Source: Terrirhizobium terrae
GTDB taxonomy: Bacteria; Pseudomonadota; Alphaproteobacteria; Rhizobiales; Rhizobiaceae
DNA length: 64,000 nucleotides
NCBI RefSeq assembly: GCF_030323265.1
Contig: NZ_CP104990.1
Span: forward strand, 496,001-560,000
Direction: 5' to 3'
The number at the start of each line of letters is the position of its first letter. The stretch's first letter is position 1. This document shows positions 12,470 through 25,689 of this stretch, in pieces. The notes under the pieces were generated by a model, which was given only the letters and a program-made list of their open reading frames with translations, ran no database searches and was not told the DNA's origin. The translations under genes were made by a program, and so were the position numbers.

Positions 12470-13284
12470 CACTTTTGCTCCATTCGCGGGTCGAAGCGGT
12501 CGCGCAGCGCGTCTCCGAGCAGGTTGATGCCGAGCAATGTCAGCGAGATGCAGATGCCGGGGGCAAGGCCGAGCCAGGGTGCCCGTTCGATATAGGTGCG
12601 GGCGGCCGACAGCATGTTGCCCCAGGTCGGCGCCGGTGGCGGCACGCCAAGGCCGAGAAAGCTCAGGCCGCTTTCCGCGAGAACGACCCAGCCGAACATC
12701 GATGTGGCGAGAACCACGATCGGCGCTGTGCAATTGGGCAGCACATGATGAAACATGGTGGCGAATTCGGAATTGCCGATGACGCGCGAGGCTTCGACAT
12801 ATTCCCGCTCGCGAGCGGAGAGCACGCTTGCGCGGACGACACGCAGCACCGACGGGGCAAAGGCGATGCCGAGCGCCAGGATGATGCCATATTTGTTGGG
12901 GCCGGAGATGACCATCAGGCCGAGCGCCAGAAGCGTGCCGGGAAATGCCAGAAGCGCATCGCTGAATACCATCAGGATCCGATCGACCGTGCCGCGGGTA
13001 TATCCCGCCACGAGGCCGGCAATCGTGCCGGCGATGATCGCGAAGGCGACGGTCAGGATCGCGACCGTCATGCTCTGGACGGCGCCCGCCATCAGTCGCG
13101 AGACGACGTCGCGGCCGAATTCGTCGGTGCCGAGCCAGAATTGCGCCGATGGCGGCTTCAGGCGGGAGATAAGCTTGATCGCCGCCGGGTCATAGGGCGT
13201 CCAGACCATGGCGATCAGCGCCATGCCGCCGATGAAGATCAGCAGGGCCGACCCGATGAGCATGTTTGCCGGCTGCCTGATCAT
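12469..13284 (-). CDS. Dipeptide-type ABC permease (DppC family)
   Basis: About 271 residues with an N-terminal membrane segment (LIGSALLIFIGGMALIAMVW), then the DppC hallmark LGTDEFGRDVVSRLMAGA and five further hydrophobic helices. The EAA loop (YVEASRVIGNSEFATMFHHVLPN) contacts the ATPase. The start at 13284 overlaps the DppB stop (ATGA), and the stop overlaps the ATPase start, which shows tight translational coupling. Confidence 0.92.
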   Translation of the reverse strand: MIRQPANMLIGSALLIFIGGMALIAMVWTPYDPAAIKLISRLKPPSAQFWLGTDEFGRDVVSRLMAGAVQSMTVAILTVAFAIIAGTIAGLVAGYTRGTVDRILMVFSDALLAFPGTLLALGLMVISGPNKYGIILALGIAFAPSVLRVVRASVLSAREREYVEASRVIGNSEFATMFHHVLPNCTAPIVVLATSMFGWVVLAESGLSFLGLGVPPPAPTWGNMLSAARTYIERAPWLGLAPGICISLTLLGINLLGDALRDRFDPRMEQK

Positions 13285-15844: not shown

Positions 15845-17008
15845 TCAGGCGGCGTTCGTTTGAGCCGGTCCCGGCTGTTCGATGGGTTTCACCTGCATGT
15901 CGAGGCTGTATTTCCAGAAATGCGCGCCGAGTGCCGGCAGCAGGGCCACCTCGATGCGGCCCTCGCTCGGCACCATGACGATCATCGCGACCGTGGCGGA
16001 CTGGTTGTTGGAGAGCGGCGACTTGCGCGGCGGGCGGCAGACCGAATAGGGCGTCTCGAACATGTCCGACAGCGCATGCTTGACGGTATCGACGGTGATC
16101 TGCCCGTTATGCGGCTCCAGCAACTGGCGGACACGCAGGTCGCGATAGAGGCTGTCGGGCATGTTGAATACGCCCCTGTCCTGCAGTTTCGACAGCGCCA
16201 CCTGGCTCTGGAAATGGTTGGCGTGAACGAGAATGCCGTCCTGCGGATGGACGAGGAAGGTTTCGTCCGGGGCGCATTCGAAATCGATCGCGATGCCATG
16301 GGCGTGGCCGATCATCATGTTGTTCGATGCCGACTTGCGCGTGCCATAGACGGCCTGCATCGACATGGCCAGCTGGTCCTGTTCCAGAACCCTGCGGCGG
16401 ATGATGGCGAGCGGCACGCCGAGTTCGCGATAGTCGCGCTCGGTCTCCAGGTAATTGCCGCTGATCGTGATGCCGGCGGAGTTGAAGCCGGTGCGGGCGA
16501 GGCCGCCGGCTTCTGTAAAGGTGACGATGTCCGGGCCGTCGTTGCGCTTGATCTTGAGAACGACGGCGGTTTCCGCGCATTCCGCCTTCCAGTCCCAGTT
16601 CTGGGCGTGAATGAATGTATTGTCGCGGCTGGCAGACGGCATGATGAAGACGCCGGTGCAGCCGTCGGACTGGATGAAGTCCTGCTGACCCTTTTCCCGG
16701 CGGCGCGCCATCTTGAGGATCTCTGTCCGCGCATTGAGCAACAGCACCGCTGCGAGATCCTTGTTTATCGCACGGGCGATACCTTTCATCTCTTCGATAT
16801 ACTGGCTGCCATAGTCCTCGATTGCGCCGGCGAAGCGGTCGATCATCGCTGCGAGATCGTCATCCTTGAGGCCGGAGGAATGCAGCTGATCCTTGTAGTG
16901 ATCGACGCCTTTCAGGATTCGCTCGGATGCCTGCTCGCCATATTGTTGACCGCGCTCGAACGGCGTACCAGAAACTTCGATGAGCGGGCAGGGAAGGGGC
17001 AGGGTCAT
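15845..17008 (-). CDS. C45-family acyltransferase/amidohydrolase (isopenicillin N acyltransferase-like)
   Basis: A 387-residue protein of the acyl-CoA:6-aminopenicillanic acid acyltransferase family. The expected maturation site is SDGCTGVF, where Cys117 would be exposed as the N-terminal nucleophile after self-cleavage. Other family features are GTPFERGQQYGEQ near the N terminus, HAQNWDWK after the Cys, and GLARTGFNSAGITISGNYL. It has no signal peptide, so it acts in the cytoplasm on imported material. It is the promoter-proximal gene of the importer operon and is divergent from a GntR regulator. Bacterial members hydrolyse or transfer acyl groups on amides; the substrate is not known. Confidence 0.88.
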   Translation of the reverse strand: MTLPLPCPLIEVSGTPFERGQQYGEQASERILKGVDHYKDQLHSSGLKDDDLAAMIDRFAGAIEDYGSQYIEEMKGIARAINKDLAAVLLLNARTEILKMARRREKGQQDFIQSDGCTGVFIMPSASRDNTFIHAQNWDWKAECAETAVVLKIKRNDGPDIVTFTEAGGLARTGFNSAGITISGNYLETERDYRELGVPLAIIRRRVLEQDQLAMSMQAVYGTRKSASNNMMIGHAHGIAIDFECAPDETFLVHPQDGILVHANHFQSQVALSKLQDRGVFNMPDSLYRDLRVRQLLEPHNGQITVDTVKHALSDMFETPYSVCRPPRKSPLSNNQSATVAMIVMVPSEGRIEVALLPALGAHFWKYSLDMQVKPIEQPGPAQTNAA

Positions 17009-18141: not shown

Positions 18142-19317
18142 TTACCCTGCTTTGGCCAAGGGCAGTCGCAAGGTCGTGCCGATCATGATCATCCTCACCG
18201 CGTCTTCCGCAGCGCGGGCAAGTAGCTTGGGTGCTGCGGAGATTGCGTCTTCGAGCGAGCATGGCCGCGTCAGAAACGATGCGAAGGCATCAATGCCGCA
18301 ATCGAGATTGAGCCTCACACCCTTGCCGATCGTGCCGGCAAGCGCAACCACCGGAACACCGGCCTCCTTGGCACGCCGTGCGATTTCGGCCGGAACCTTG
18401 CCGAAGGGCGTCTGTCCATCGAGGCTGCCTTCCGCCGTGATCACCAGATCGGCGTCGCGAATGTAATCGTCGACCTCCAGATATTGCATGACGATCTCGT
18501 AACGGGGATGGAGCCTGCCGCAGAGGAGACCGAGAACGGCTGCACCCAATCCACCCGATGCACCGGCGCCGGGTGCGGAGCCGACGTCGAGGCCGGTGGC
18601 GCTTTTGATGCAGGCTGCATAGATTTCCATGGCCATCGCCAATTGCTCGACCTGCTCCGGTGTCGCGCCTTTTTGCGGGCCGAACACGCGGGCAACACCA
18701 CGCTCGCCGAGAAGCTGATTGTGCCAGTTGACGGCCGCATCGATCCGGACCTTCTCAAGGCGTGGGTCACGGGTGCTGATGTCTATACGGTCGAGCGGTG
18801 TTAGCGCCGCACCACCGCGGTCGAGTTCATTGCCGTCAGCGTCGAGAAGACGGATTCCCAGCGCTTGCGCCATGCCGGCGCCGCCATCGTTGATGCCGCT
18901 GTCGCCGCAGCCGAGCAAGATCCGCCTCGCACCGAGATCGAGCGCGGCCCGCACCAGTTCACCGACACCGTAGCTCGTGGTCCGGCATGGGTTGCGCCGA
19001 TCGCGCGGGACGAGGCCGAGACCGGCAGCGGCGGCCATCTCGATGACTGCGGTCGGTTCTGCACAGCCGCCGAGAAAACCCACAAGGGCCTGTACCGGCT
19101 GTCCGATCGGCCCGGTGACGGTGACCGGATGGATCGTGCCATCGGTGGCGCCCACCAGCGCCCTGGTAAATCCTTCGCCGCCATCGGCCATCGGCACCTT
19201 CGTGACGACGGTGCCGGGAAACGCGCGCAGGACACCTTTTTCGATACAATCGGCGGCCTGTTCTGCCGAAAGGCTTTCCTTGAAACCGGAAGGAGCGACA
19301 ACGACGCGGAAGGGCAT
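18142..19317 (-). CDS. Glycerate 2-kinase (GarK/GlxK type)
   Basis: About 391 residues, the usual length for the family. Characteristic motifs are VVVAPSGFKESLSAEQAADCIEKG at the N terminus, VPMADGGEGF, GCGDSGINDGGAGMAQALG and PGAGASGGLGAAVL. It phosphorylates D-glycerate to 2-phosphoglycerate with ATP. I chose the ATG at 19317 (MPFRVVVAPS), which has AGGA upstream; an earlier ATG would add 11 residues. It is followed (in map order) by an SLC13-type anion transporter on the same strand, which may bring in the organic acid that feeds it. Confidence 0.9.
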   Translation of the reverse strand: MPFRVVVAPSGFKESLSAEQAADCIEKGVLRAFPGTVVTKVPMADGGEGFTRALVGATDGTIHPVTVTGPIGQPVQALVGFLGGCAEPTAVIEMAAAAGLGLVPRDRRNPCRTTSYGVGELVRAALDLGARRILLGCGDSGINDGGAGMAQALGIRLLDADGNELDRGGAALTPLDRIDISTRDPRLEKVRIDAAVNWHNQLLGERGVARVFGPQKGATPEQVEQLAMAMEIYAACIKSATGLDVGSAPGAGASGGLGAAVLGLLCGRLHPRYEIVMQYLEVDDYIRDADLVITAEGSLDGQTPFGKVPAEIARRAKEAGVPVVALAGTIGKGVRLNLDCGIDAFASFLTRPCSLEDAISAAPKLLARAAEDAVRMIMIGTTLRLPLAKAG

Positions 19318-19416
19318 GGGGATTATCCTTTCATGACATGTGTGTGACATGAGGGAAACGTGACCGCTCGAGGCTTATTCCGGCATCGAAGAAATTTATT
19401 CGGCTAAATAAGAATT

Positions 19417-19462: not shown

Positions 19463-20944
19463 TTATTTTCCGGGCATGAAACCCTGCAGCGGCCACAGCA
19501 CCGTCGCCACGAAGATAAGCAGACATATGAAAGGCGGGGCGAGCAAATAACCGAGCCTGCGCAGATCGGCCTGAGTAAAGGCCGCAGGCTCCAGCCCACC
19601 AAACAGAACGACCGGTTTGGCCGATACCATGGTCATCTGGCAAAAGCCGCTGGCAAGCGTCACGACCATTATGAGTACGGCCGGATCCACGCCGAGGGCC
19701 GAGAGCGGTAACGCGAAGGCGGGGATGAGCACCGTTGCCCGCGCCGTCCGCGATGTGATCACCAGATGAGAGAAGGTGGCGATGACCACGGCAAACGAGA
19801 TGATGACGACGGGTGCAGTGATCATGCTCTGACGAAAGACGTTCACCAGCCGATCCGCCAGCATCTGGGCCGTGCCCGTTTCAATCAATGCTTCGCCGAT
19901 GACCAGCATTCCCGCCATGAACAGCAACAGGTTCCATTCGACGGTTTTCAGTGCTGCCTTGAGCGTCATGCCGGAAATATTGGGCATGCACAGCACAAGG
20001 GCTGCCACTACGCCGACCAGTGCCATGTCGATGCCGTGAAGCGACTGGGTGGAGAACATCAGTACGGTGCCGCAGACCACGGCGGCAACCGCGATCTGTT
20101 GACGCGACAGGGCCGTGGGTCGTTTTGGCGCCGTGCTGGCGCCTGGTGCCATGTCGCGTTCCTCCTTGGTCAGGAACACGTGAAGCAGGAGGGCGCAGGC
20201 GGTCAGGCAGGTTATCAGCGAAAACGGACCGGCCAGAACCAGCCAGCCGATGAAATCCGGTTGCGTGCCGGTGAGGCGGGACAAAAAGCCGGCGGCAACG
20301 AGATGCGCTCCGGCGCCGATCAGCGAAGCTCCAGCGGAGAGAAGGATGACGGTCGGAAAAAGCAGGCCGAGCGCACGCGAAATCCGCGTGTTGCCAATTG
20401 CGGATGAGACGCCGAGATAGACCGGCATCAGGATTGCGGCCCGCGCTGATGTGGAGGGAATGACGAAGGCTGTTGCAAAGGTCAGTAGTGTCAACATCCA
20501 GAACATCGAGCGGATGCTGCGCATCTTCGGCATCATCCGGTCAGTCACCTGCTCGATCAGGCCCACATGCCGCAGAACGCCGGCGATCACGAAGGCCGAT
20601 AGCAGCAGCCAGATGATGTCATTGCCGAGCGATCGGTAGACCAGATCTTCCGGTATGGCGCCGACGACCGCGAGTGCCACGGCTCCCGCCAGCGCGACCG
20701 GGGTTTCCGGCAGTTCGAGCACCGTCCAGGCGGTTATCGCAGAGAAGAAGATGAAGAGCGTCGCCCGCATCGACATGGTCAGGCCGTCGATTGCCAGAAA
20801 GATCAATACGGCCGCGAAGCCGATCAGCAGCGCCGCGACTACCTGTTTGAGATGCTTGACCGATACCACGGGCTCGGCTGCCGCAACCGTCGTGTTGTCT
20901 TTTTGAGGATTTGCCATGGGCAAGGACATGAGGTGCGCCACCAC
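19463..20944 (-). CDS. SLC13/DASS-family anion permease
   Basis: A 493-residue integral membrane protein with about 11-13 hydrophobic helices. Typical family features are ELPETPVALAGAVALAVVGAI, LLLSAFVIAGVLRHVGL, the SNT-like PSTSARAAILMP loop, and its second copy SHLVITSRTARATVLIPAF. Members move di- and tricarboxylates, sulfate or related anions, usually with sodium. Two adjacent GTG codons (20944 and 20941) follow a GGAGG; 20941 has the better 7-nt spacing. It neighbours glycerate kinase, so a sugar-acid substrate such as tartrate or glycerate is possible. Confidence 0.85.
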   Translation of the reverse strand: MVAHLMSLPMANPQKDNTTVAAAEPVVSVKHLKQVVAALLIGFAAVLIFLAIDGLTMSMRATLFIFFSAITAWTVLELPETPVALAGAVALAVVGAIPEDLVYRSLGNDIIWLLLSAFVIAGVLRHVGLIEQVTDRMMPKMRSIRSMFWMLTLLTFATAFVIPSTSARAAILMPVYLGVSSAIGNTRISRALGLLFPTVILLSAGASLIGAGAHLVAAGFLSRLTGTQPDFIGWLVLAGPFSLITCLTACALLLHVFLTKEERDMAPGASTAPKRPTALSRQQIAVAAVVCGTVLMFSTQSLHGIDMALVGVVAALVLCMPNISGMTLKAALKTVEWNLLLFMAGMLVIGEALIETGTAQMLADRLVNVFRQSMITAPVVIISFAVVIATFSHLVITSRTARATVLIPAFALPLSALGVDPAVLIMVVTLASGFCQMTMVSAKPVVLFGGLEPAAFTQADLRRLGYLLAPPFICLLIFVATVLWPLQGFMPGK

Positions 20945-21114
20945 TTGGCCTCCTTTTTTACGCCGTCATCAGAGGGCAGTTTCGGTTTGGGGAAAGTGGC
21001 CGGTCCGCCGGGATCTCCCCATGTCCGATTGTGAACGTTTGATGACGATGGATATTCCCGGCCTCGGTGCATTTTCGAAAAGAAGAGCAATCACGCAGAA
21101 AATGCATCGCCTCC

Positions 21115-21139
21115 GGAATAAGTCAGCGGCAGCCCCGTT
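21115..21139 (+). promoter_or_regulatory. ECF-type promoter of the Asp-rich exported protein gene
   Basis: GGAAT at 21115-21119 and CGTT at 21136-21139 are separated by 16 nt, 41 bp before the ATG. The flanks match the two other plus-strand copies in this cluster (CGGAATAAG and CCGTT). This is the -35/-10 arrangement of ECF sigma factors. Confidence 0.75.
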
Positions 21140-21180
21140 CATCGACAGGTACTGACCTCGAACATGGAAGGAGAACAGTC

Positions 21181-21435
21181 ATGAACCGAGTTCTTGCCGC
21201 AAGCGCGATGGCCCTGCTTGCCACGGCCACGCTGACGGCGGCGACACATCCGGTGCAGGCCATGCCACTTGCGCAGCCGCAGATATCCGCGCCCTCGCAG
21301 GTCATCCTGGTGGATGATGACGACGACGATGATGATGATGATCGCCGTTACAGCCGTCGGTATCGCGGTAATGACGATGGATGGCCAAGGTTTCGTGGTC
21401 ATTCCCGCGACGACGATGATGACGACGACGATTGA
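21181..21435 (+). CDS. Small exported Asp-rich protein
   Basis: An 84-residue protein with a signal peptide (MNRVLAASAMALLATATLTAA, cleavage near VQAMP). The mature part is short and extremely acidic in blocks: ten Asp in a row near residue 41-50, an Arg/Tyr/Gly-rich middle (RRYSRRYRGNDDGW), and eight Asp at the very C terminus. No enzyme motif is seen. Such runs can bind calcium or other cations or basic surfaces, but this is inference. It has a good ribosome-binding site (AAGGAG) and an ECF-type promoter shared with neighbours. The start at 21181 is preferred over an upstream in-frame codon because the signal peptide begins here. Confidence 0.75.
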   Translation: MNRVLAASAMALLATATLTAATHPVQAMPLAQPQISAPSQVILVDDDDDDDDDDRRYSRRYRGNDDGWPRFRGHSRDDDDDDDD

Positions 21436-21463
21436 GGTCACTTCATCCAAAACAGAAATATCG

Positions 21464-21492
21464 TGCCCGGCCTTTGCGCCGGGCATTTTTTT
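21464..21492. terminator. Intrinsic terminator between Asp-rich gene and subtilase gene
   Basis: A perfect 8-bp stem (TGCCCGGC with GCCGGGCA), 6-nt loop and a run of seven T follow the Asp-rich gene by 28 bp. The two genes converge here, so it ends transcription of the plus-strand gene and may serve the minus strand partly. Confidence 0.9.
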
Positions 21493-21512
21493 GAGCATGG
21501 CGCCTGCCGATA

Positions 21513-22931
21513 TCAGATCTGGCACAGAGCCTTTGCGTTCAGCAGGCCCCAGCCGAAAATCGCGTCCTTGCCCGGCTCCCCCATGTCGTTTGCCGAACGC
21601 GTCAGGGCGTCCGCCACCTCGCCGGGTTTCATGTCCGGTTTGGCGCCAAGCAGCAGTGAAGCCGCCGCCGTCACGAAGGGCGCGGCAAACGAGGTGCCAC
21701 TCTTTTGCCTGCCCCCGGAAATGGAAGCGGCCGTCCAGACCCCAACACCCGGAGCGGCGATATCGATATGATCGCCACGAGAGGCACGGCGATAAGGTTT
21801 CATGTTCCGGTCGACAGCGGTAACGGCGATCACATCCGCATAGGCGGCGGGATAGACCGGTTTGGCATTCGGGCCTTCATTACCGGCGGCGGCAATCAGG
21901 ATCGTGCCCTTGGCGATTGTGGCGCTCACGGCTTGCTCCAACAGCATGTTCGGCGGCCCGCTGAGGCTGAGATTGATGATCCTGATGTTGCGGGCCGCCA
22001 GCATGTCGAGCGCGCGGATGAGATCGTATATGTCGGCGATATCTGCGGCCTTGCGATAGCGCTGGAAGGCATCGATCGCGACCAGCCTGCCGCCGGGAAC
22101 GAGGCCCGGAGCGCGACTGCCGGCAGAGCCGACGAGAAGGGCGGCAACGGCGGTGCCGTGTTGCGCCGTAGAGGTGGGAGCCGCACCGTCCCCCAATTGG
22201 AGCACCTCGATTGTCGCGTCGGCAAGCGAAGCATGCCCGGCGTTGATGGCAGTATCGATCAGGCCGATCGGCATGGGGGCGCCGCAGCTTGCCGCCCGCC
22301 CGTCGCCGGCATCCTGCGGCCAATCGACGATATGACGAACAAGCTTGCAGTCGCCGCCGGGGCAGGGTGATGTCTTCTTCTGCTCGGGCTGATAAAAATG
22401 GTTGAAATCCACCGAGGCGGAGGGGGCAGCGGCAATGACGGCCTGACGGGCGACATCCAGCGTCATGCCTGTCGGTATCGTCAGCTTGACCATTTCACTT
22501 CCGGTAAGCGAGATCGATATTCGCTCATCAACCACAAATCCGTCCTGCGTCAGGTTTGCGATCGTTGTCTCGTCGAGGCCCAATGCCACGATTTCATTGG
22601 GCGCGCGATCGGGAACTGAAACTGTGCGCCGGGGCGGTGAACGCCGCTCCGCTCGCTGGAATGGCCAGCCGAACAAGGATCTCAGATCACCACGCGGCCG
22701 GCGTGTATCATTGTCGTCACCGCCACCGCCACCGGAAGAGCCGCCACCGTAACCGCCGCCGCTACCATCGTCGCCATCGTCACCGCCTCCATCGTCGTCA
22801 TCGTCCGCAAATGCTGAGGTGATGCCGGGAGCGATGCCAGCAGATTGCAGGACCGGCAGTGTGATCACGCCGCCGAGGCCTGCGAGAATCACGATGAAAA
22901 ATCTGAGACGGTATGGTGCAGTCTTCTTCAA
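21513..22931 (-). CDS. Exported S8 (subtilisin-like) serine protease
   Basis: A 472-residue protein. It has an N-terminal hydrophobic signal (FFIVILAGLGGVITLPVL) followed by an Asp/Gly-rich disordered stretch (about 42-75) and a Pro/Arg-rich linker. A prodomain-like region covers about 105-200. The subtilase triad is visible: Asp226 in IGLIDTAIN, His258 in QHGTAVA and Ser414 in SGTSFAAP, with the oxyanion Asn351 in AAGNEG. Cys190, Cys195 and Cys216 may form a disulfide. The start is a TTG with GGAGA 7 bp upstream. It is divergent from the ECF sigma gene and has a matching ECF promoter, so it probably belongs to that sigma regulon, acting in the periplasm or outside. Confidence 0.88.
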   Translation of the reverse strand: MKKTAPYRLRFFIVILAGLGGVITLPVLQSAGIAPGITSAFADDDDDGGGDDGDDGSGGGYGGGSSGGGGGDDNDTRRPRGDLRSLFGWPFQRAERRSPPRRTVSVPDRAPNEIVALGLDETTIANLTQDGFVVDERISISLTGSEMVKLTIPTGMTLDVARQAVIAAAPSASVDFNHFYQPEQKKTSPCPGGDCKLVRHIVDWPQDAGDGRAASCGAPMPIGLIDTAINAGHASLADATIEVLQLGDGAAPTSTAQHGTAVAALLVGSAGSRAPGLVPGGRLVAIDAFQRYRKAADIADIYDLIRALDMLAARNIRIINLSLSGPPNMLLEQAVSATIAKGTILIAAAGNEGPNAKPVYPAAYADVIAVTAVDRNMKPYRRASRGDHIDIAAPGVGVWTAASISGGRQKSGTSFAAPFVTAAASLLLGAKPDMKPGEVADALTRSANDMGEPGKDAIFGWGLLNAKALCQI

Positions 22932-22997
22932 GTCGCTATCTCCGGTAGAAAAGCAGCCGAAATATTCTCGACAGTCACGCGAATGCTATCCTGGATA

Positions 22998-23022
22998 GAC
23001 GTTTGTCTCGACAGAATATTCC
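22998..23022 (-). promoter_or_regulatory. ECF-type promoter of the subtilase gene
   Basis: On the minus strand GGAAT (23022-23018) is separated by 16 nt from CGTC (23001-22998), 66 bp before the TTG start. It has the same spacing as the three plus-strand copies, but CGTC instead of CGTT and GGAATATT instead of GGAATAAG. Confidence 0.6.
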
Positions 23023-23043
23023 ATGCCGTGCCAAACAAATCGC

Positions 23044-23586
23044 ATGACGAATGACACGCGCACAGTGCCACAGCAGTTGGTGGAGTTTCTGCCCAATCTG
23101 CGACGATTTGCGATTTCGCTCTGCCATTCGCGAGAACTGGCCGATGATCTCGTGCAGGCCGCCTGCGAGCGAGCGATCGTTGCCGCCGACCGTTTTTCGC
23201 CCGATACGCGCTTCGATGCCTGGATGTTTCGCATCCTGCGCAATCTCTGGATCGATCACCTGCGCCGCGCCCGCACTGCTGGTCCACAGGAGGAGATCGA
23301 GAGAGCCTACGATGTGTCAGTGCCGTCAGGAGAGGCCGCGACCCATGCCCGCATGGAACTGATGGAAGTGGCGACCGCCCTGCAGAAACTGCCGGAAGAA
23401 CAGCGTGAAGTGCTTGTCCTGGTCTGCGTTGAGGAATTGAGCTACCGCGATGCGGCCGATGTGCTTTCCATTCCCATAGGTACGGTGATGAGCCGTCTGG
23501 CACGGGCGCGCAAAAATCTGGCGGAACTGACGGGAATAAATCTTGGAGAGAAACGTTCGTCCGATACGAAAGGCGGCGTTGCATGA
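23044..23586 (+). CDS. ECF-family RNA polymerase sigma factor
   Basis: A sigma-70 factor of about 180 residues with only regions 2 and 4. Region 2 spans about 10-75 (LCHSRELADDLVQAACERA, then FDAWMFRILRNLWIDHLRR). Region 4 spans about 110-160 (LPEEQREVLVLVCVEELSYRDAADVLSIPIGTVMSRLARARKNL). There is no extra C-terminal sensing domain. The ATG at 23044 starts a good family N terminus; an ATG at 23023 would lie inside the divergent promoter. The stop overlaps the anti-sigma start (ATGA). It is the likely activator of the four GGAAT-N16-CGT promoters around it. Confidence 0.92.
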   Translation: MTNDTRTVPQQLVEFLPNLRRFAISLCHSRELADDLVQAACERAIVAADRFSPDTRFDAWMFRILRNLWIDHLRRARTAGPQEEIERAYDVSVPSGEAATHARMELMEVATALQKLPEEQREVLVLVCVEELSYRDAADVLSIPIGTVMSRLARARKNLAELTGINLGEKRSSDTKGGVA

Positions 23587-24337
23587 CCATGGAACATTTT
23601 GACGACGAGACATTGATGGCATTCGCCGATGGCGAACTGGACGCGGCGACCAGCCAGCGGCTGGAGACGGCGCTCGAAACAGACGAGGCGCTGGCAGAGA
23701 GGCTGGCCATTTTTCTCGACACGCGGATGGCGGTTGCCTCTGCCATGAAGCCGTTGATCGATGAACCCGTGCCGGAAGCGCTCGCCGCATCCGTGCGGGG
23801 TATGGCCGAAGCGGCGGACACCAAGGCTGCAAACGCGCCCGAAAACAATGTCGTTGCTTTCCAACGGCCGGAAAAGCCGGTCACCGCGCGCAGCAGGAAG
23901 CCGTGGTTGATGCCTGTCGCTGCCTCCATTCTTGCCGTCATCACCGGTGTCGGCGGTTATATGGCCGGTCGTGGCAGCATCGATACCAGTGGATCGCCTG
24001 AAAAGGCCTTGTTTGCCGCGCTCGATCAACAGCCTTCCGGCAGTGATGTCTCGCTTGGCCAATCCGAGGCGTTGCATATCGTCTCGAGTTTTGTCGACGG
24101 CCGGGGGAACTTTGCCGGGAATACGAGTTGAAACGGCAGAACGAGACGACGGCAACCGTCGCATGCCGCACGAATGGCGCGTGGGTCACGCGTCTGGCGC
24201 TGTCATCGCCGCGTGCCGAAGGCTATGTGCCGGCATCCTCTCAGGAAACGATCGACGCCTATCTGGCCTCGATCGATGCCGGTGAACCGCTTGCCGTAGA
24301 GGCGGAAAAAAACGCACTCGCCGACACGGTTGAATAA
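23583..24337 (+). pseudogene. Membrane anti-sigma factor, interrupted by a 1-nt deletion
   Basis: The N-terminal half has the anti-sigma layout (FDDETLMAFADGELDAATSQRLE), with no zinc-binding HxxxCxxC. A single membrane helix at about residues 104-122 (WLMPVAASILAVITGVGGYMAG) places the C-terminal half in the periplasm. The frame ends early, but one frame over the protein continues with CREYELKRQNETTATVACR and a Glu/Ala-rich tail. Restoring one T in the TTT run at 24111-24113 gives about 251 residues. Its overlap with the sigma gene marks it as the cognate regulator. Whether the indel is real matters, because loss of the periplasmic half could deregulate the sigma factor. Confidence 0.85.
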
Positions 24338-24354
24338 ATTTTTCGAACGCACAC

Positions 24355-24379
24355 GGAATAAGTCCCGATCCGGGCCGTT
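24355..24379 (+). promoter_or_regulatory. ECF-type promoter of the DUF6065-like gene
   Basis: GGAAT at 24355-24359, a 16-nt spacer and CGTT at 24376-24379, 30 bp before the ATG. The -35 context CGGAATAAG is identical to the copies at 21115 and 25235. Confidence 0.75.
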
Positions 24380-24409
24380 CTCCTCGCACCCGCCGCGAGG
24401 AGAACGATC

Positions 24410-25126
24410 ATGGCACTGTCACTGCTGAAAAAGCCTGAACCGAAAATGACCTTCCTCTGCCGGAAGGAGGACGAGGGTGTCATACCCGCACCCGTGCGGG
24501 CAAAAACCGCGCTGCCGGACTGGTTTCGCAAACTGCCGCCCGTGACAGAGACACGTGTTTCGACGACGGATAGCGGTCTCACCGTCAAACGCTGCATGCC
24601 GTTTCTCGATGCCATGGCGACCGGCTGGGTCATCGGCCTTGCGGCGACGGTGCGCATGCAGATCTCCGATGGCGGGCAGACAGTCGATTGCGGCTGGGAT
24701 TTCGACCGCACCATGGTCAGCAATCATGCCAACCATCAGGTGGCCGGCAACCCACGCGACCCGATGCCGCCCTGCAAATTTCACAATTACTGGACGATCG
24801 TCACGCCGCCGGGCTGGAGCTGCATGTTCGTGCCACCGCTGAACCGCCCCAACGGCGCATTCGAAATCGTGTCAGGCGTGGTGGATACCGACACCTACCA
24901 GTCGGAAATCCATTTTCCGTTTTTCGCAACTGGCGAAGACGGATTGCATGTTCTGGAGCGCGGCGCGCCGATCGTGCAGATCATTCCCTTCCGCCGGGAA
25001 ACGACCGACCTGGCGGCCGATATCCGATCGGAAAGCGAAGAGGAGGCGGCAACCCGCAAAACGATCCTGCGCAAAACGCAGGCATCCGATGGCTGGTATC
25101 GGAAATTCGCCCGCGCTCAGCGCTGA
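24410..25126 (+). CDS. DUF6065-like protein
   Basis: A 238-residue cytoplasmic protein without signal peptide or membrane helix. It starts with a short Lys/Pro-rich segment, then PVRAKTALPDWFRKLPPV, VKRCMPFLDAMATGWVIGL and a beta-rich centre (HQVAGNPRDP, NYWTIVTPPGWSCMFVPPLNRP). This order matches the uncharacterised DUF6065 family, also seen in phages, where function is unknown. It sits between the anti-sigma gene and the Ser/Asn-repeat gene with its own ECF-type promoter and a GAGGAGAA ribosome-binding site. Confidence 0.7.
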   Translation: MALSLLKKPEPKMTFLCRKEDEGVIPAPVRAKTALPDWFRKLPPVTETRVSTTDSGLTVKRCMPFLDAMATGWVIGLAATVRMQISDGGQTVDCGWDFDRTMVSNHANHQVAGNPRDPMPPCKFHNYWTIVTPPGWSCMFVPPLNRPNGAFEIVSGVVDTDTYQSEIHFPFFATGEDGLHVLERGAPIVQIIPFRRETTDLAADIRSESEEEAATRKTILRKTQASDGWYRKFARAQR

Positions 25127-25234
25127 AATCCGCCGCGCCATCCCGCTTTCGCCGATATCCGGCTTCCGGCCGGCTGTCGGCGCTCGCCTTTTTTGTTTTT
25201 CGACATAAGCATGAGAAATTATTTGATATTTTTC

Positions 25235-25259
25235 GGAATAAGCGCGAGCGCCATCCGTT
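25235..25259 (+). promoter_or_regulatory. ECF-type promoter of the Ser/Asn-repeat gene
   Basis: GGAAT at 25235-25239, a 16-nt spacer and CGTT at 25256-25259, 46 bp before the ATG. The -35 context is CGGAATAAG. Confidence 0.75.
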
Positions 25260-25305
25260 TCTCGCAAGCAGCCACGGAGGCTGTCTGATAATCAGGAGAG
25301 AAACT

Positions 25306-25689
25306 ATGAAGAAGATGTTTGCCATTCTCGGCTCACTGCTTGCCGCCAGCGTTGCAACCCCAACCCCGGCGGTCGCCGATGATCCGGTCACCCGTTTCCT
25401 AGAGCGCACGTTCAATAACAAGGCAAGCTATCGCGAGGCGCGTCGTGGCCGTGACGATAATCGCAGGAGCTGGTCGAATTCCAGCCGCAACAGTTCCTCG
25501 AACTCTTCCCACAACTCCAGTTCGAACGGAAATTCGAATTCCAACAGCAATTCGAACTCAAACAGTTCCTCGAATTCGTCGAACAACTCGAGTTCCAACA
25601 GCAGTTCCAACTCGTCGAGCAATTCCAGCTCGAATTCGTCCTCGAACTCGTCCTCAAATTCCAGTTCGAATTCTTCCGACGACGATTGA
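25306..25689 (+). CDS. Exported Ser/Asn low-complexity repeat protein
   Basis: A 127-residue protein with a signal peptide (MKKMFAILGSLLAASVATPT, cleavage near AVADDP). A short basic segment (REARRGRDDNRRSW) leads into about 70 residues made almost only of Ser and Asn (SNSSSNSS units), ending in three Asp. The DNA under the repeat is itself a set of short imperfect direct repeats with AATTCGA/AACTC/TCCAG words, so it can change length easily. No Cys or catalytic motif is present. A flexible polar chain on the cell surface or in the periplasm is likely. It has an ECF-type promoter and AGGAGAG ribosome-binding site. Confidence 0.75.
   Translation: MKKMFAILGSLLAASVATPTPAVADDPVTRFLERTFNNKASYREARRGRDDNRRSWSNSSRNSSSNSSHNSSSNGNSNSNSNSNSNSSSNSSNNSSSNSSSNSSSNSSSNSSSNSSSNSSSNSSDDD

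Follow-up and report, generated by a model that had tools for sequence, protein, structure and literature searches.

Genes and sites of the cluster

The window analysed here is a stretch of 64,000 nucleotides from Terrirhizobium terrae (contig NZ_CP104990.1, positions 496,001 to 560,000, forward strand). It contains a gene cluster around an extracytoplasmic function (ECF) sigma factor and its anti-sigma factor. Seven sites of the form GGAAT-N16-CGTT or GGAAT-N16-CGTC lie within 5.9 kb around this pair. They precede genes for a subtilase, a small Asp-rich protein, a protein of the DUF6065 family, a protein with a Ser-Ser-Ser-Asn repeat, here called (SSSN)n, a glycerate kinase, a permease and the anti-sigma factor itself (Table 1). 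The type of switch, RpoE6/ECF26, is known. What is new is the (SSSN)n/DUF6065 cargo, of which no description was found.

An earlier note on this DNA had placed an ECF sigma/anti-sigma pair amid four such sites. The pair is present, at 23047-24337, and the four sites lie where the note put them, on the strands it gave, with 16 nt between GGAAT and CGTT or CGTC and each ahead of a different gene. The list was incomplete, since three more sites precede the anti-sigma, permease and glycerate kinase genes.

Table 1. Genes and promoter sites of the cluster, in window coordinates.
Feature	Position	Strand	Remarks
Glycerate kinase, likely regulon member	18142..19317	-	Gly_kinase E 3.5e-136; site in 10/11 relatives; possible start at 19350, ATG at 19317 taken as likelier
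Promoter site, glycerate kinase gene	19357..19381	-	39 bp before ATG 19317, 6 bp before ATG 19350
SLC13/DASS-family permease, possible regulon member	19463..20944	-	CitMHS/Na_sulph_symp match; site in 5/11 relatives
Promoter site, SLC13 permease gene	21034..21058	-	89 bp upstream
Promoter site, Asp-rich gene, GGAATAAGTCAGCGGCAGCCCCGTT	21115..21139	+	41 bp to start codon
Small Asp-rich protein, 84 aa, signal-peptide-like start	21181..21435	+	Homologues in 5/29 relatives at E<1e-10
S8 subtilase, signal-peptide-like start, then poly-Asp run	21513..22931	-	Peptidase_S8 E 2.4e-34
Promoter site, protease gene, GGAATATTCTGTCGAGACAAACGTC	22998..23022	-	66 bp to start codon; mapped at SMa0142 (S. meliloti)
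ECF sigma factor, ECF26/RpoE6-like, 179 aa	23047..23586	+	Sigma-70 regions 2 and 4; 63% identity to RpoE6; alternative in-frame ATG at 23023 possible
Promoter site, anti-sigma gene, within sigma open reading frame	23533..23557	+	25 bp upstream; mapped at SMa0144 (S. meliloti)
Anti-sigma factor, N-terminal sigma-binding part and membrane helix, 182 aa, early frame end	23583..24131	+	zf-HC2-type match under Pfam cut-off
Separate frame, anti-sigma C-terminal periplasmic part, 69 aa	24128..24337	+	ACR..GYVPASS segment as in intact relatives
Promoter site, DUF6065 gene, GGAATAAGTCCCGATCCGGGCCGTT	24355..24379	+	30 bp to start codon; mapped at SMa0148
DUF6065 protein, 238 aa, predicted dUTPase-like fold	24410..25126	+	
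Promoter site, (SSSN)n gene, GGAATAAGCGCGAGCGCCATCCGTT	25235..25259	+	46 bp to start codon
(SSSN)n repeat protein, 127 aa, signal-peptide-like start, DDD end	25306..25689	+	Repeat statistics, conserved site

Conservation of the promoter sites

The sites are concentrated at this locus. In the whole window GGAAT-N16-CGTY occurs 9 times against 1.33 expected, and none of 100 shuffles reaches 9; two of the nine matches (12781-12805 and 16559-16583, both on the minus strand) lie inside open reading frames (ORFs) and were not counted as sites. The longer word CGGAATAAG-N12-CCGTT is found exactly 3 times in the 5.89-Mb genome, always in the cluster (reversed-pattern control 1). GGAATA-N15-CGTY is found 41 times genome-wide (reversed-pattern control 11), with 7 of these in the 5.9 kb. 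Given the density elsewhere in the genome, such clustering has a Poisson probability of about 1e-14, for a stretch chosen post hoc.

Relatives of the cluster were collected by a protein-guided scan of a species-genome collection, which gave 32 loci. The 29 alphaproteobacterial loci were kept, some of them shortened at contig ends, and three from Paenibacillus and Thermus (L033-L035), in which a distant subtilase alone is present, were excluded. Labels of this kind denote individual loci. Sites were sought at the 16-nt spacing from -200 to +60 around each estimated start. Because the loci were picked by one gene, through protease similarity, and share ancestry, the counts are those of non-independent trials.

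A site precedes the DUF6065 gene in 19/19 relatives and the Ser/Asn gene, at first count, in 16/17. On recheck the latter became 19/19: the miss at L010 was a misplaced start, with the site 44 bp upstream, and the genes of L020 and L025, which fall under the similarity cut-off, were added with sites at 49 and 45 bp. The site is also present before the protease in 26/29, the anti-sigma gene in 23/27, the glycerate kinase gene in 10/11 and the Asp-rich gene in 4 of 5 relatives. The sixteen other spacings between 8 and 24, pooled, gave 4 matches for DUF6065, 1 each for the Ser/Asn, protease and glycerate kinase genes, none for the Asp-rich and SLC13 genes, 5 for the sigma gene and 18 for the anti-sigma gene, where 12 of the 18 have spacing 20, as expected from a second CGT four bases on. 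Across 103 sites compared, the spacer is variable and position 6, which the search did not require, is A in 101. The promoter words are present upstream of the same genes in relatives, and the reading of the earlier note withstands this check.

The sigma gene itself has a 16-spaced site in 1/28 relatives, and words spaced by 15 or 17 nt gave 4 matches. A positively autoregulated sigma promoter of this type is unsupported. At L006, L007 and L036, the sigma strand has a GGAAT-N15-CGTT word that shares bases with the -10 of the protease promoter; the corresponding word of the window (22980-23022) differs at its first base.

The word GGAATAAG-N13-CGTT has 6 genome matches, 4 of them in the cluster. 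One distal match (L120 1501-1525; G000:C1:2711897) stands 102 bp before an ORF that, by reading, is beta-carbonic anhydrase-like, and the remaining one is at the end of an ORF. Distal regulon members are not claimed from these two matches.

Relationship to the RpoE6 regulon

The best guide to the cluster is the RpoE6-EcfR6 regulon of S. meliloti (SMa0139-SMa0148), described by Lang et al. 2018 (PMC6180224), which is cited here and below from a part of its text. RpoE6 is classed there as ECF26, a group in which divergence from a serine protease is widely conserved, and its published promoter consensus is GGAATA/GT. Overexpression of RpoE6 induces the divergent protease SMa0142, the anti-sigma gene SMa0144 and SMa0148; the most prominent targets near it are SMa0139, SMa0142, SMa0146 and SMa0148. 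A possible RpoE6-dependent promoter of the anti-sigma gene lies within the sigma ORF.

The window sigma factor matches Sigma70_r2 and Sigma70_r4_2 only among Pfam profiles and is 63% identical to RpoE6. With RpoE6 as the query in a one-directional search of the source genome, it is the best match (E 5e-69; next 3e-31). Its gene is divergent from the S8 gene in the window and in 28/28 relatives that have the sigma ORF; the 29th, L021, is a contig of 4.7 kb without one. The promoter type at the locus is likewise a -35 GGAATA and a -10 CGT at fixed spacing.

The promoters printed for SMa0142, SMa0144 and SMa0148 coincide, letter for letter, with GGAAT-N16-CGTT sites in Rm1021 pSymA. One of these lies upstream of the protease gene, one upstream of the anti-sigma gene within the sigma ORF, and one upstream of the DUF6065 gene. 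Because the third printed promoter falls on the DUF6065 site, SMa0148 is, as identified by sequence match, the DUF6065 gene.

That the local sigma factor reads these sites, as the earlier note had proposed, is strongly supported by orthology, through both the 63% identity and the coincident published promoters. The experiment on the RpoE6 orthologue therefore supports the proposal and makes the system in good part a known one. The promoter logic suggested at the time, GGAAC/CGTT, gives way to ECF26 with GGAATA/CGT. An EcfG/GGAAC reading is rejected, given the fixed word GGAATA and the orthologue RpoE6. The gene content had been said to match no named system; it is partly the RpoE6 regulon, but literature searches on DUF6065, SMa0142/0143/0146/0148, the repeats and the folds found no paper describing an RpoE6-type gene set as a conserved module.

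The sites may instead be read mainly by another ECF sigma factor, either EcfG of the general stress response or a further ECF26 member, with the local one as one of several inputs. Searching the genome with RpoE6 gives 14 matches (E<=0.001), among them the window sigma factor. The targets of RpoE6 in S. meliloti overlap those of RpoE2 (27/40), and RpoE4 weakly induces the protease (PMC6180224). This explanation is nevertheless unlikely, since the seven sites surround the local sigma gene and accompany it in relatives, and since SMa0148, listed with RpoE6 only in the accessible part of that paper, has the highest log fold change (6.5) among the RpoE6 rows seen there. It is highly probable that the cluster is an RpoE6-like (ECF26) regulon, wired so that its own sigma factor reads the seven sites.

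The two clusters have much in common. Both have, downstream of the sigma gene, an anti-sigma gene served by a separate promoter within the sigma ORF, as well as a divergent serine protease, a DUF6065 gene, an (SSSN)n ORF with a site, and GGAAT-N16-CGTT promoters, three of which are printed with mapped starts (PMC6180224). In contrast to the window, the S. meliloti cluster contains a glyoxylase-type (VOC) gene, SMa0139; it has its DUF6065 gene on the opposite strand; and the 17 kb searched at L037 show no homologue of the Asp-rich, glycerate kinase or SLC13 genes.

The ECF26 group as a whole, with RpoE1, RpoE3, RpoE4 and RpoE6 of S. meliloti, shares the GGAATA/GT consensus and the divergent serine protease; its anti-sigma factors have a membrane helix and a periplasmic C-terminal domain (PMC6180224), with which the intact anti-sigma factors of relatives are consistent. 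The source cluster lacks the sulfite genes associated with RpoE1/RpoE4, and its output is the (SSSN)n/DUF6065 module.

Some other literature touches on these genes. SMa0142 appears with a positive fixation phenotype in the accessible part of a peptidase screen (PMC8175422), and SMa0143 is named, in the portion seen of PMC1557990, as a distant match of another R. leguminosarum regulator. SMa0146 was not found in the main text of an S. meliloti small-proteome paper (PMC10117765). The motif given in the available part of a study on Brucella ECF factors (PMC8315932) is of ECF16 type, unlike the motif here.

The (SSSN)n repeat protein

The (SSSN)n protein of the window has a signal-peptide-like start, continues with a short charged stretch and a 68-residue part made up of Ser or Asn at 65 positions, and ends in DDD. 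Identity between residues four apart (lag 4) is 0.84 in the window and 0.72-1.0 across 18 relatives. It reaches 1.0 over 52-56 residues in Ensifer aridi, Sinorhizobium kostiense and Mesorhizobium albiziae.

The DNA does not share this regularity. Had recent repeats in the DNA produced the period, its identity at lag 12 should be high. At lag 12, nucleotide identity in the window is 0.505, against 0.559 +/- 0.043 for random synonymous codons, and it exceeds the synonymous expectation by more than 2 standard deviations (SD) in 0/18 relatives (mean z -0.8). Serine codons of both the TCN and the AGY type are used. Because the DNA identity is not above that of random synonymous codons, the four-residue period is kept at the protein level, with the codons scrambled. 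A strictly periodic four-residue protein with aperiodic DNA is unusual evidence for selection on low-complexity sequence.

Alternatively, the (SSSN)n frame might code for no real protein but arise incidentally, from a repetitive DNA element or from an ORF annotated on the opposite strand. The pSymA records of S. meliloti ABS7 (L037 5820-6209) and ml59 (L040 4841-5230) do annotate a hypothetical gene on the strand opposite the (SSSN)n ORF. This explanation is extremely unlikely in view of the protein periodicity, of DNA periodicity that in no relative rises 2 SD over synonymous codons, and of the mixed serine codons; the signal-peptide-like starts are also similar among relatives, and the site on the sense strand is correctly placed. 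The sense ORF has its promoter site in both ml59 and Rm1021; the Rm1021 record consulted annotates no gene at this place. The (SSSN)n gene is thus likely real and annotated on the wrong strand in the two records.

A search for (SSSN)n homologues, which covered up to 7971 candidates, gave at least 5 matches, a number that low complexity limits and that is uninformative on spread. Among the matches listed, no relevant publication on a serine-asparagine repeat protein was found.

DUF6065 and its partner

DUF6065 is predicted to have a dUTPase-like fold. With its predicted model as the query, dUTPases or dCTP deaminase-dUTPases make up 49/50 listed Foldseek rows and 50/50 listed VIA rows, at a Foldseek TM-score over the query of 0.30-0.40. 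In a weak profile comparison (probability 7%, P 0.005, reversed control P 0.7), its GVVDTDTYQSE aligns with dUTPase GTIDSDYRGE, a type of stretch that we take to be the dUTPase catalytic motif. Pfam and PDB searches gave no such link: among Pfam families at E<=0.1 only DUF6065 itself was reported, not the dUTPase profile PF00692, and no PDB sequence relative was found at that threshold (best 0.35). DUF6065 differs from the dUTPase/dCTP deaminase (beta-clip) superfamily in its larger size (238 aa) and C-terminal helices as well as in lacking the PF00692 match. One source name for the protein starts with "Vanillate O-demethylase"; a role as an oxygenase was rejected, as the fold searches give dUTPases instead.

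The phage family phrog_7084, of unknown function, matches DUF6065 over nearly its full length (173 bits, E 1e-50). The match places phrog_7084 beside a concrete partner. A literature search for DUF6065 found no paper, and one on dUTPase-like and beta-clip proteins found, among the matches listed, nothing relevant to the module.

The pairing of DUF6065 with (SSSN)n extends beyond this sigma factor. At three loci (L114 4738-8686, L115 4071-8141 and L116 7259-10935), the pair adjoins a HAMP histidine kinase and not an ECF sigma gene, and GGAAT-N16-CGTT was not found in its near flanks. Thirteen other, distant DUF6065 members at the class level have neither (SSSN)n nor the site within up to 1.5 kb per side; the module is therefore a property of the close DUF6065 subfamily. 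A distant DUF6065 gene of a family member (L066) has an in-frame TGA. Close DUF6065 is carried by 8/57 species of the source genus, the source species included, so the system is accessory within the genus.

DUF6065 could also be an active enzyme, a nucleotide hydrolase in the dUTPase superfamily that would clean the nucleotide pool under the stress that frees the sigma factor, its proximity to (SSSN)n being due to co-regulation only. The names in the fold searches and the alignment at the presumed catalytic stretch speak for such an enzyme. The low TM-score, the missing dUTPase match in Pfam and the weakness of the profile comparison speak against it, and co-regulation by the sigma factor fails to explain close DUF6065 genes that adjoin (SSSN)n with no such sigma gene near. 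A hydrolase of this kind is rather unlikely. With a likelihood just short of even, (SSSN)n and DUF6065 may form an undescribed, portable two-gene envelope module, in which a tetrapeptide-repeat polymer kept by selection is joined by a partner of dUTPase fold that makes, modifies or guards the polymer. One lineage would have the module plugged into an ECF26 sigma factor, another into a two-component system.

A possible mechanism

Intact anti-sigma factors in 26 relatives have 234-274 aa, compared with 182 aa in the window, where the frame stops before a conserved periplasmic segment. These relatives and one model are consistent with a sigma-binding part, a membrane helix and a periplasmic domain, which in the relatives contains two invariant cysteines. 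A similar interruption occurs in S. meliloti ABS7 pSymA (L037 6215-7001), where this stretch has one base more than in the other S. meliloti records compared. The triad of the subtilase (D226/H258/S414) is intact, and Asp, His and Ser, with the Asn, are kept in 33/33 aligned rows.

The membrane-bound anti-sigma factor would hold the sigma factor until an envelope signal frees it. The signal may be a redox one, because of the cysteine pair in the periplasmic domain. Since seven genes share a promoter word beside one sigma gene, they are likely switched on together. The output would comprise the subtilase, two predicted secreted low-complexity proteins, DUF6065, two metabolic genes and the anti-sigma factor. 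As it is the anti-sigma gene that carries a site, inside the sigma coding sequence, and not the sigma gene, the freed sigma factor would bring about more anti-sigma factor but no more sigma factor, and the response may be a self-limiting pulse.

The output would act outside the cytoplasm, through a subtilase predicted to be active and disordered polypeptides that are polyanionic or polar (poly-Asp and (SSSN)n). Tentatively, these polypeptides may form a layer of protective or scaffold-like function, which the protease would trim, and DUF6065 is a predicted cytoplasmic partner of the (SSSN)n protein. Of these steps, the layer and the role of DUF6065 are the least certain.

The secreted poly-Asp and (SSSN)n proteins might also be substrates, or a reserve of Ser, Asn and Asp, that the co-regulated protease digests, while glycerate kinase channels serine-derived glycerate into metabolism. 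The promoter word does stand at the protease, both polypeptides, glycerate kinase and the permease. A mere reserve would have no need of a strict four-residue period, however, and this explanation is very unlikely.

Several observations weigh against a regulon with a secreted output as proposed here. In the source strain its basis is sequence and orthology. The relatives' counts are, as said, non-independent, and the SLC13 permease has its site in just 5/11 relatives. The anti-sigma frame of the window is interrupted in the assembly (24100-24337), its conserved periplasmic segment lying in a different frame, and the match to ChrR is weak. Secretion has the signal-peptide-like starts, judged by eye, as its sole basis. 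The Asp-rich gene is rare (homologues in 5/29 relatives) and the (SSSN)n protein of S. meliloti lacks the DDD end; a common polyanion role is therefore not general. At one close DUF6065 locus (L059/L113), an (SSSN)n gene is absent from the neighbourhood. Finally, S. meliloti stripped of all its ECF sigma factors is reported to show no major defect in growth, stress or symbiosis (PMC6180224), and so the output has no known phenotype.

According to the same authors, microarray data failed to define the role of RpoE6. The conserved gene set turns this role into a testable question, namely what the (SSSN)n polymer does and why DUF6065 keeps it company.

Flanking genes

Between positions 17000 and 27000 of the window, Rfam gave nothing at the gathering score. 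To the left of the cluster lies a gene for a C45-type autoproteolytic acyltransferase (15845-17008; NCBIfam, 285 bits), which is apparently unrelated to it. In R. leguminosarum 248 (L038 2497-4294), the SLC13 gene next to the cluster matches in several separate frames, as if it were broken.

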